64,000 nucleotides of DNA, taken from assembly GCF_000378945.1 (NCBI RefSeq), contig NZ_KB900539.1:3914688-3978687 (forward strand), written 5' to 3'. Below the pieces are notes generated by a model. The model did no database searches. It had not been told where the DNA came from and saw nothing but the letters and a program-made list of their open reading frames with translations. Source of the stretch: Methyloversatilis universalis EHg5 (GTDB taxonomy: Bacteria; Pseudomonadota; Gammaproteobacteria; Burkholderiales; Rhodocyclaceae). Positions 39,330 through 42,114 of this stretch are shown here, piece by piece. Position 1 is the stretch's first letter, and each line of letters starts with the position of its first letter. The translations under genes and the position numbers were made by a program.

Positions 39330-40952
39330 ATGCTGTCCGCTTCCAACATCACCATGCAGTTCGGCGCCAAGCCGCTTTTCGACAACGTCAGCATCAAGTT
39401 CGGCGACGGCTACCGCTACGGCCTGATCGGCGCCAACGGTGCCGGCAAGTCGACCTTCATGAAAATCCTTGCCGGCGTGCTCGAACCGACCGCCGGCAAC
39501 GTGGCGATCGACGCGCACGAGCGCATGGCCTTCCTGCGCCAGGACCAGTTCGCCTACGAAGACGTGCGCGTGCTCGACGTGGTCATGATGGGCCACGCCG
39601 AAATGTGGGCCTGCATGAAGGAAAAGGACGCGATCTACGCCAACCCGGAGGCGACCGAGGACGACTACATGCGTGCCGCCGAACTGGAAGGCCAGTTCGC
39701 CGAGTACGACGGCTACACCGCCGAAGCGCGTGCCGGCGAACTGCTGCTGGGCGTGGGCATTCCGTCGGAACAGCACGACGGCCCGATGAGCCAGGTCGCC
39801 CCCGGCTGGAAGCTGCGGGTGCTGCTGTGCCAGGCGCTGTTCGCCAATCCGGACATCCTGCTGCTGGACGAACCGACCAACAACCTGGACATCAACACCA
39901 TCCGCTGGCTCGAACACACGCTGAACGAGCGCAACAGCACGATGGTGATCATCAGCCACGACCGCCACTTCCTGAACCAGGTGTGCACCCACATGGCCGA
40001 CCTGGACTACGCCACCATCCGGCTGTATCCGGGCACCTGGGACGACTACATCGAGGCCTCGACCCAGGCGCGCGAACGCGCGTCGGCGGCCAACGCCAAG
40101 GCCAAGGAGCGGGTGGCCGAACTGCAGAGCTTCGTGCGCCGCTTCTCGGCCAACAAGTCCAAGTCCAAGCAGGCCACTTCGCGCCTGAAGATGATCGACA
40201 AGATCAAGATCGAGGAATTCAAGCCCAGCTCGCGCCAGTACCCGTGGATACGCTTCGACTACGACCCGAAGGAAAAGCTGCACCGGCAGGCGGTCGAACT
40301 GGACAACGTGGTGTTCGGCTATGACGGCGGCCCGCAGATCCTGAAGGGCTTCACCGCCACCTTCGACGGCGGCGACCGCGTGGCCATCATCGGCGAGAAC
40401 GGCGTCGGCAAGACCACCTTCCTGAAGCTGCTGGTCGGCGAACTGACGCCGCAGCACGGTTCGATCAAGTGGGCGGAAAAGGCCCGCCTCGGCTATTTCG
40501 CGCAGGATCATTCGGCCGATTTCGCCAGCAACGAGAACCTGACCGACTGGATCAGCGGCTATGTGCGCGAAGGCGGCTACGAAGGCGACGACGCGATCAC
40601 GCTGATCCGCGGCACGCTGGGCCGGCTGCTGTTCGGCGGCGACGACGTGAAGAAGGCGGTGCGCGTGCTGTCCGGCGGCGAACAGGGCCGCATGATGTTC
40701 GGCCGTCTGATGCTGCAGCGGAACAATGTGCTGCTGCTCGACGAACCGACCAACCACATGGACATGGAATCGATCGAGTCGCTGAACGGCGGCCTCGACG
40801 CCTTCGACGGCACGCTGTTCTTCGTGTCGCACGACCGCGAATTCGTATCCACGCTGGCCACCCGCGTGCTCGAAATCCGCGCCGACGGCCAGATCATCGA
40901 CTACCGCGGTGGCTACGAGGACTACCTCGCCAGCCAGGGCATCGACGACTGA
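39330..40952 (+). CDS. ABC-F family translation factor ATPase (YbiT type)
   Basis: 540-residue soluble protein with two ABC domains and no membrane part, of the ABC-F group that act on ribosomes. First domain: Walker [10 protein letters not shown], signature-region [13 protein letters not shown] (an altered signature characteristic of YbiT) and Walker [13 protein letters not shown]. The inter-domain linker (about 235-315) is rich in charged residues ([22 protein letters not shown]). Second domain: Walker [10 protein letters not shown], signature LSGGEQGRM, Walker [12 protein letters not shown]. The start is the ATG at 39330 after GAGTTCCCC. It is followed by a repeat block and a HIT protein. 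Confidence 0.95.
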
Positions 40953-40956
40953 AATG
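40945..40956. repeat. 12-bp direct repeat, left copy, flanking the repeat block
   Basis: ACGACTGAAATG, covering the last codons and stop of the ABC-F gene. An identical copy lies at 41254-41265 and spans the start of the HIT gene. The pair frames the repeat block 40957-41253 like a target-site duplication. Confidence 0.7.
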
Positions 40957-40987
40957 AGGCCCCCACGCTCACTGCGTTCGCTGCCCC

Positions 40988-41083
40988 CCGAGGGGGCTGC
41001 GCTCGCCCTTGGGGCGGCCCTGCGGGCGGCGCGGAGGCCCCCACGCTCACTGCGTTCGCACAGGGCCGGCTTTGCACAGCCGG
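40988..41083. repeat. Repeat unit copy 1 (96 bp)
   Basis: First of two 96-bp copies; the copies differ at two positions only (G/A in the GCGTTCGC/GCATTCGC part and C/T in GGGCCGGC/GGGCTGGC). It begins CCGAGGGGGCTGCGCTCGCC and ends TTTGCACAGCCGG. Confidence 0.9.
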
Positions 41084-41134
41084 CCCGTTCGGCAGGCACG
41101 GCGCATGCGCCGCGAAACCCCTGCCTCACCCCCG

Positions 41135-41230
41135 CCGAGGGGGCTGCGCTCGCCCTTGGGGCGGCCCTGCGGGCGGCGCGGAGGCCCCCACGCTCACTGC
41201 ATTCGCACAGGGCTGGCTTTGCACAGCCGG
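41135..41230. repeat. Repeat unit copy 2 (96 bp)
   Basis: Second copy of the 96-bp unit, 94 of 96 bases identical to copy 1. The near identity suggests recent duplication or gene conversion. Confidence 0.9.
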
Positions 41231-41253
41231 CCGGTTGCGCAGCACCTATCTGA

Positions 41254-41265
41254 ACGACTGAAATG
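41254..41265. repeat. 12-bp direct repeat, right copy
   Basis: ACGACTGAAATG again. The ATG at 41263-41265 is the start codon of the HIT gene. The identical left copy contains the ABC-F stop (TGA), so an original ABC-F/HIT junction reading TGAAATG is implied. Confidence 0.7.
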
Positions 41266-42114
41266 TCCGACAATTGCCCGATCTGTGACGACACGCCCGG
41301 CCATCACTGGCTGTGGCGCGACGACCGGCTGCGCGTGATCGACGCGCGCGACCCTGACCACCCGGCCTTCCTGCGCGTGATCTGGAACGGTCACGTGCGG
41401 GAAATGACCGACCTTGTCGATGCCGACCGCGACCACCTGATGAATGTGGTGTGGCAGGTCGAACGCTGCGTGCGCGACGTGGCCCAGCCGGAGAAGATGA
41501 ATCTCGGCAGCCTCGGCAACATGGTGCCGCACCTGCACTGGCACGTGATCGGCCGCTGGCCGGACGACGCCCACTTTCCCGGTTCGGTGTGGGGCGCGAA
41601 ACAGCGCGAATCCGCACCCCGTCCGCGTCTGCCGTCGGCGCTGTGGCGCGCCACGCTGCTGGCCCGGCTCGGTCTGCCGACCGTTCAGGTCAGCGATGCG
41701 CTGGCCGGCGCCTACGAAGGCAGTGACTACGCGGTGGCGCTGCCCGATGGCGAAGCGGTGCTGAACGTGGGCGCCCCGTCACCGGCGCTGGACCGCTGGC
41801 TGGCGGCCCAGGGCCAGGCTCAGTGGGCGCTGATCTCGGCGGTCAATCCGTGGTCGTCGCACTGCGACGAAGACAGCAACCGCGCAGCCCATGCCGCGCT
41901 GCGCGCCCTGCTGACCCAGCGCGGTCTGGCCGTGCTCGATGCCCAGAACCGCAGCGCCGACGCAGGCTGGACCGAAACGTCGCTGCTGTGCGCCGGCCTG
42001 AGCGGCGAAGAGGCGCTGCGCATCGGCGCCGCCTTCGGCCAGAACGCGGTGCTCACCGGCGATGCAGGTCAGCCGGCACGGCTGCGCTGGTGCGTGCGCC
42101 GGCAGGACGACTGA
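41263..42114 (+). CDS. HIT-domain protein fused to a DUF3293 domain
   Basis: 283 residues in two parts. Residues 1-120 are a HIT (histidine triad) nucleotide-binding domain: CPICDDTPGHHW at the start and the triad HLHWHVIGRWPDD (H-x-H-x-H) at about 91-95. After a linker of about 40 residues, residues 165-278 resemble DUF3293: ALISAVNPWSSHCDEDSNRAAH and DAGWTETSLLCAGLSGEEALRIGAAFGQNAVL. HIT proteins hydrolyse or transfer nucleoside phosphates; the role of DUF3293 is unknown. A plain ribosome-binding site is missing before the ATG, which is inside the 12-bp repeat. Its close original link to the ABC-F gene suggests a shared function in translation or nucleotide clean-up. Confidence 0.85.
   Translation: MSDNCPICDDTPGHHWLWRDDRLRVIDARDPDHPAFLRVIWNGHVREMTDLVDADRDHLMNVVWQVERCVRDVAQPEKMNLGSLGNMVPHLHWHVIGRWPDDAHFPGSVWGAKQRESAPRPRLPSALWRATLLARLGLPTVQVSDALAGAYEGSDYAVALPDGEAVLNVGAPSPALDRWLAAQGQAQWALISAVNPWSSHCDEDSNRAAHAALRALLTQRGLAVLDAQNRSADAGWTETSLLCAGLSGEEALRIGAAFGQNAVLTGDAGQPARLRWCVRRQDD

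Follow-up and report, generated by a model that had tools for sequence, protein, structure and literature searches.

The window analysed here, the whole stretch of 64 kb, contains a gene encoding an ABC-F ATPase followed by a gene encoding a HIT-domain protein whose best named relatives belong to M. discipulorum MAG_31 (84%) and M. thermotolerans 3t (76%). Between both genes lies a GC-rich repeat block flanked by two copies of the 12-bp sequence ACGACTGAAATG, as the original prediction had described, and this sequence occurs in the window only at these two positions (Table 1). The left copy covers the ABC-F stop codon TGA (40950-40952), and the right copy runs into the HIT start codon ATG (41263). 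A 12-base match between the two 50-base flank windows was obtained in 1 of 20,000 mononucleotide shuffles and is thus no effect of base composition, with the caveat to this figure that about 7 of the 12 letters lie over the stop-start motif. The block is spanned by a mini-ORF without a Pfam match, and the ABC-F frame is likewise open from the ABC-F stop to the TGA of the right 12-mer. The predicted fold of the block (-174.6 kcal/mol) was moderately better than that of shuffled sequences (z -2.55). The Rfam search around the block gave no match above the gathering score; a sub-threshold match to the che1 RNA (31.1 bits, gathering 54.1, E 0.013) was observed on the minus strand at 41050-41127 of the window, over module B of the block (Table 1).

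Table 1. Features of the ABC-F/HIT junction and of the repeat block (positions in the window).
Feature	Position	Strand	Remarks
ABC-F ATPase gene, 540 aa, upstream partner	39330..40952	+	Pfam ABC_tran (two stretches) and ABC_tran_Xtn; start codon located
Left copy of ACGACTGAAATG: ABC-F stop and mini-ORF start codon	40945..40956	+	
Mini-ORF, 99 codons, ATG to TGA, spanning the whole block	40954..41253	+	Stops 9 nt short of the HIT ATG
Complete unit A, 79 nt, CCCCCACGCTC...CTGCCCCCCGAGGGGG...CTTGGGGCGGCC...	40956..41034	+	Served as search query
Compound array of repeat modules inserted at the junction, 297 bp, 76% GC	40957..41253	.	Eight relatives of the genus have an empty junction
Region X, 5' arm of the covarying 3' hairpin, first unit	40995..41008	+	Covariation
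Region X', 3' arm, first unit	41024..41037	+	Covariation; pairing with X leaves one base bulged, as judged by eye
Second copy of the 26-nt left end of unit A	41034..41059	+	
Module B, consisting of two GC hairpins and lying within the second unit A	41060..41130	+	Direct sequence reading; other copies exist
Right part of the second unit A	41131..41181	+	X 41142-41155, X' 41171-41184
Third copy of the 26-nt left end	41181..41206	+	
Partial module B	41207..41242	+	End of the second 112-nt repeat member
Right copy of ACGACTGAAATG, with its stop-start motif at the HIT start	41254..41265	+	
HIT-domain gene, 283 aa, downstream partner	41263..42114	+	Pfam HIT and DUF3293

The block had been described as a pair of 96-bp units. 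Instead, we found two 112-nt copies (40984-41095 and 41131-41242, 95% identical, spacing 147), together with a 26-nt left end that occurs three times, at 40956, 41034, and 41181. The spacings of 78 and 147 and the copy-to-copy distance of 309 are all multiples of three. This composition corresponds to one complete 79-nt unit (unit A), a second unit A split by another module (module B), and the left end of a third unit A accompanied by a partial module B. The focal block was also searched for terminal inverted repeats: the closest 12-mer correspondence between its two end regions reached 8/12 and was non-terminal, and no inverted pair was present between the block ends.

The ABC-F/HIT junction was compared across 13 genomes of the genus Methyloversatilis. 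It was empty in eight, including the close relatives G001, G004, and G010, filled in four (our own genome included), and occupied in G002 by a 50-nt remnant that starts with GATGAAGGCCCCC. The other filled junctions, those of G006, G007, and G012, carry blocks of the same family that differ in composition and length. The view of the block as an insertion is thereby borne out. The expectation that its removal would join both genes as TGAAATG is arithmetically true, but this junction was absent from all eight relatives with an empty site. In a tree of the HIT protein with several open forks, filled and empty junctions appeared in both main clades, which implies more than one gain or loss.

Copies of the unit were found elsewhere in our own genome: the block used as query gave 22 matches, and the left end gave 20, with none for the reversed control. 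Unit A was present in 13 of 13 genus genomes, with 140 matches forming 99 clusters, 98 of which were analysed (all except that at 1880443 in G012). According to gene directions obtained with a small codon model trained on four stretches of the window, both flanking genes were co-directional with the unit in 94 of the 98 clusters, and the left end lay at most 16 nt from the upstream stop codon in 81 of 98. These clusters represent 35 sites and are therefore not independent; at 31 of the 35, every member was co-directional. The junctions presumably include cysD/cysN, sucC/sucD, and mraY/murD, judging by the protein sequences. For a neutral element filtered by harm alone, sites between convergent genes and both orientations would be expected, and unit A is hardly found there in the genus. 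This points either to a target preference for the stop-start motif or to selection for the coupled module. Regarding module B, three of five inspected module-B-only copies did not follow this junction rule, and the module may be a separate repeat that inserts into unit A. At the module-B-only loci L017, L019, and L020 of our own genome, the flanking genes did not display the sense, co-directional pattern of unit A.

Empty sites were compared at 18 of the 35 sites against five genomes, site 21 being left out. A repeat-free junction of at most 25 nt was found in at least one relative at 15 of these 18 sites; at site 8, the relatives had a longer repeat-free spacer, and at sites 2 and 4 the compared relatives carried inserts too. 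Several sites exhibited duplicated flanks. At site 19, the 16-bp sequence GGAGATCCTGTCATGA flanks the insert on both sides in G001 and G010 and is single in G004, while G000 and G002 have empty junctions in which the sequence differs slightly. Likewise, at site 23 the 10-bp sequence ACTGAAATGA is found on both sides in the filled genome G001, whereas the empty genomes G000, G004, and G010 read GA(A/G)CTGAAATGAACGCC once, G002 being likewise empty. At site 32, the 9-bp sequence GAACTGACA occurs on both sides in the filled genome G010 and once in G004, and at site 4 about 55 nt of the start of the downstream gene are duplicated with about six changes. At locus L008, which represents site 4, this duplicate of the downstream 5' end sits upstream of the repeat and in frame with the mini-ORF, and L097 and L126 are similar. 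Sites 8, 22, and 25 had no clear duplication, and for site 8 this also holds in comparison with its relative. The repeat-free junctions in relatives, some of them exact empty sites with 10- or 16-bp duplications, show that the repeat is an insertion.

The duplication is real at some sites, and it is neither universal nor of fixed length. Considering one copy per site, the longest flank match averaged 6.5 nt, compared with 5.6 +/- 0.22 for shuffled partners, and matches of at least 8 nt were found at 5 of 28 sites against 1.6 expected, only a modest excess over chance. In other genera, 7 of 70 copies had a flank match of at least 8 nt where 0.85 were expected, and four of these seven (L253, L269, L277, L286) adjoin another unit. 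Duplications range from none to 16 bp, with about 55 bp at a single site, and a constant footprint of 12 bp is thus absent. The proposed 12-bp target-site duplication therefore does not hold as a property of the family, and the idea that the other copies are bounded by duplications fails for many of them.

What most inserts have in common is an open reading frame that adjoins the neighbouring genes at both ends. Mini-ORFs were counted in 81 copies at 28 sites, after removal of sites 7, 24, 26, 28, 31, and 34 and loci L146 and L165, of copies without a plus-strand upstream gene, and of junctions outside 40-700 nt; at the six removed sites, the match involved the GCCCCCCGAGGGGGC core alone or a different repeat, or the ends were unresolved. 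A mini-ORF was considered coupled when its start lay within -4 to +10 of the upstream stop and its stop within -15 to +8 of the downstream start. By this rule, 62 of the 81 copies bear a coupled mini-ORF through the whole insert, spanning 25-196 codons, with at least one such copy at 24 of the 28 sites; 11 of the 19 misses belong to site 0. Among the 72 copies with a left start, the start frame reached the junction in 61 and the other two frames in 5 and 5, while exact +4, +1, or -1 overlaps (of the ATGA, TGATG, and TGAnATG kinds) numbered 42 in the start frame against 3 and 2 in the others. Orthologous inserts differ in length by whole codons and keep their end: 143, 85, and 38 codons at site 13, all ending at +4; 196, 48, and 75 codons at site 14, ending at +4; and 107, 62, and 52 codons at site 12, ending at -1. 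At site 2 this was observed in four of six scored orthologs, the poorer fits being G000, with one frame to -10 and another to +4, and G001, with a frame to -41 and perhaps a misplaced downstream start. At the focal junction, the mini-ORFs of G006, G007, and G012 comprise 110, 42, and 88 codons and end in TGA(A/G)ATG. The block had been thought to split an operon; as it reads as an open, coupled mini-ORF, it probably keeps the operon joined. Stop codons in the inserts totalled 71 in the three sense frames and 218 in the antisense frames, compared with 161 +/- 10 after shuffling, and the lower number in sense might help to explain why the copies are biased in orientation.

The 3' part of the unit has the form X - CTTGGGGCGGCCCGGC - X', in which the arms vary among copies yet remain complementary. 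With 58 distinct X sequences, an average of 6.59 of 8 positions formed Watson-Crick pairs, whereas shuffled partners gave 3.25 +/- 0.18 pairs (maximum 3.84 in 1,000 shuffles) and partners slid by 1-3 bases gave 2.05-3.57. In some copies of other genera, X' includes the downstream start region, for example CATGTCAGTTCC/GGAACTGACATG in L187 and CATGCTGCC/GGCAGCATG in L190.

Beyond the genus, unit A was found in at least 25 of 200 genomes of the order (18 of 109 genera, our own genome included), a lower bound given that four candidates per genome were scored. The core pattern, searched for as an exact pattern that would miss diverged copies, was present in 29 of 399 genomes of the order Burkholderiales (23 of 159 genera) with up to 58 copies, and its reversed control in none. 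Outside the order it was absent from 183 genomes of the class, the two matches among the 185 drawn being our own genome and one of the same order. From 73 rows of other genera, minus two that were too short and one from our own genome (L274), 70 copies were classified with the codon model: 37 lie in sense and 6 in antisense at junctions, 13 in antisense and 3 in sense within open frames, another 6 are flanked by genes that differ in direction, and 5 are unsure. The antisense copies inside open frames are L174, L176, L179, L197, L261, L277, L278, L303, L307, L308, L311, L313, and L319; in L278, CGGGAATG is present on both sides of the unit. Outside the genus, 43 sense copies are situated between co-directional stretches, and 35 of them have a left start. 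Coupling was observed for 26 of the 35 in the start frame and for 17 and 10 in the two other frames, a contrast weaker than that within the genus. Tandem arrangements were also observed: L172 (about 1490-1750) comprises three units, each followed by GGAGGCGAGATGAA, and genome G073 (C1:2692284-2692644) has five core matches with a spacing of 81 nt. Four loci of other genera had no match in Rfam.

The unit was additionally present in 11 plasmid records of other genera (Burkholderia, Paraburkholderia, Variovorax, and Azoarcus) and matched no phage record. Eight of the 11 records were read. In the four that include gene tables, the unit is flanked by co-directional genes (histidine kinase and cheB, gnd and zwf, a binding protein and a permease) or, at an sdhB/sdhE junction, falls within the 5' end of sdhE as annotated. 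All eight have a mini-ORF that begins immediately upstream of the unit; in six it terminates at -1 or +4 relative to the next long ORF, and in the other two, which represent one junction, it continues in frame. In the Paraburkholderia plasmid L338 (1493-1849), the annotated SdhE starts at the ATG of the repeat and so would bear a repeat-encoded N-terminal extension, possibly a true fusion or a start-site misannotation; L344 has the same open frame.

We lean towards interpreting the block as a compound copy of a Burkholderiales repeat, mobile but non-autonomous, that resides in sense at operon stop-start junctions and is carried as a coupled mini-ORF, and hold this reading to be probable, by no means certain. 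The pattern of presence and absence, together with the spread across genera, suggests that the repeat moves as a unit. Insertion would often leave a partial duplicate of the junction on either side, of which the left one supplies a start codon that touches the stop of the upstream gene, and the inserted DNA would then be read as a mini-ORF that stops at the start of the downstream gene. As the mini-ORF runs from the upstream stop to the downstream start, we propose that translational coupling survives the insertion, with the mini-ORF being translated and mediating the coupling. For the single-unit copies of several other genera, in which the 3' hairpin X - CTTGGGGCGGCCCGGC - X' reaches the downstream start region, a ribosome translating the mini-ORF would need to open the hairpin before the next gene could start. 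The nearest X' of the focal block, with its last base at 41184, lies 79 nt upstream of the HIT start. Direct coverage of this start by the hairpin is therefore impossible in the focal block, and the melting step is not directly applicable. A bolder version is possible, albeit doubtful: a selfish transposable mini-cistron that would recognise stop-start junctions, carry or copy its own start, stop, and ribosome-binding motif, place a single-unit hairpin complementary to the next start region, leave the operon coupled, and form, through tandem copies, chains of mini-cistrons linked by ATGA or TGACATG.

Other explanations were weighed against the same observations. An intercistronic RNA hairpin inherited vertically as a messenger stabiliser, attenuator, or processing site, with the 12-mer representing two look-alike stop-start motifs, would account for the sense orientation, the covarying stem, and the similar stop-start motifs at both ends of unrelated copies; we consider it unlikely, as presence, absence, and length vary among close relatives with exact empty sites, and an open coupled frame over 25-196 codons is not expected of an untranslated element. 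A classical miniature transposon that leaves a fixed 12-bp target-site duplication and is neutral to the operon appears decidedly unlikely. While the exact 12-bp repeat, improbable by chance in the shuffles, the eight relatives with an empty junction, and the duplications at sites 19, 23, and 32 agree with it, duplication lengths of none, 9, 10, 12, 16, and about 55 do not, and such an element should also be found at convergent sites and in both orientations, unlike the 94 of 98 clusters in sense between co-directional genes. The original prediction of a non-autonomous mobile element thus stands as far as insertion with empty sites is concerned, but not with regard to a transposon-like body, for which the block lacks terminal inverted repeats.

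The spread, as a gene, of a conserved small-protein family (M-K-x-P-P-R-S-L-R-S-L-P-P-E-G-A...) is very unlikely. Outside the genus, 33 of 42 copies do share the L-P-P-E/K-G frame of the core, but within the genus two frames are used for the core (9:9), all three occur for the left part of the unit (11, 9, and 3 sites with a stricter anchor; 12, 9, and 3 before), the frames differ between orthologs at sites 2 and 14, and the focal mini-ORF matches no Pfam family. Because the frames differ, openness and coupling are kept in the genus and the peptide is not, and a conserved peptide was set aside as the whole explanation there. Least probable of all, and only barely credible, is a REP element moved by a RAYT transposase. 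The repeat is short, GC-rich, and palindromic, and our own genome has two RAYT-type (Y1_Tnp) genes, but both adjoin other repeats (the best nearby match to the block being 32 nt at 81%), and the GTAG/CGTC tag is missing from both strands of the focal block. RAYT was rejected as the mobiliser, given that both loci carry other repeats, and the transposase search, which covered the Y1_Tnp genes of our own genome, yielded no mobilising enzyme. The RAYT-type locus L111 (C1:2229800-2232300 of our own genome) is bordered by GTGCGCAGACC...GGTCTGC arrays and L110 (C1:2180500-2182700) by GTGGGAGCGGCGCC...GGCGCCGCTCCCAC arrays; they are apparently separate REP systems.

When compared to known systems, the repeat resembles several. 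Miniature inverted-repeat elements (MITEs) are defined by terminal inverted repeats and direct repeats of set length. Like our repeat, MITEs such as Chunjie of Geobacter uraniireducens are non-autonomous, mostly intergenic, and found in an operon, and the empty sites in relatives are a trait in common; in contrast, the focal block is devoid of terminal inverted repeats and the repeat family of a fixed-length duplication. A review has one Chunjie copy disrupting a phosphate operon, and the title of a work cited there refers to an undisturbed operon structure (PMC10969869). The same review describes the Rickettsia palindromic elements (RPEs) as in-frame insertions within genes, with a conserved peptide (PMC10969869). 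Both are short palindromic mobile repeats compatible with translation, and some unit copies of other families are open inside ORFs, but the main site of the unit in the genus is the stop-start junction, which yields a separate coupled mini-ORF. In-frame placement within host ORFs is not the pattern of the genus; among the copies of other genera, 16 of 70 were classed by the codon model as intragenic and open. REP elements and BIMEs are GC-rich palindromes organised in mosaic arrays downstream of genes (PMC3733652). These features are shared by our repeat, which differs from the REP/BIME and RAYT systems in the missing GTAG/CGTC tag of the focal block, a unit of about 80 nt, and no RAYT link in our own genome. 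Traits are shared with RPEs, MITEs, and REPs, but the focal block lacks features that define MITEs and REPs. Translational coupling at overlapping stop and start codons is a general mechanism, and the ends of the inserts display such overlaps (ATGA, TGATG, and TGAnATG); the difference is that the coupling cistron here is an inserted repeat. A search of the open-access PMC literature, judged by title and including a search by the letters of the repeat, found no description of it.

If this interpretation is true, mobile DNA would enter operons of core genes without polar damage, as a translated link. Some short hypothetical or N-terminally extended genes of the Burkholderiales could be explained in this way, and the question would arise as to which enzyme finds stop-start junctions. 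The family would also provide a natural set of coupling modules with built-in replicates, in which one junction is represented by inserts of varied lengths and by empty relatives.
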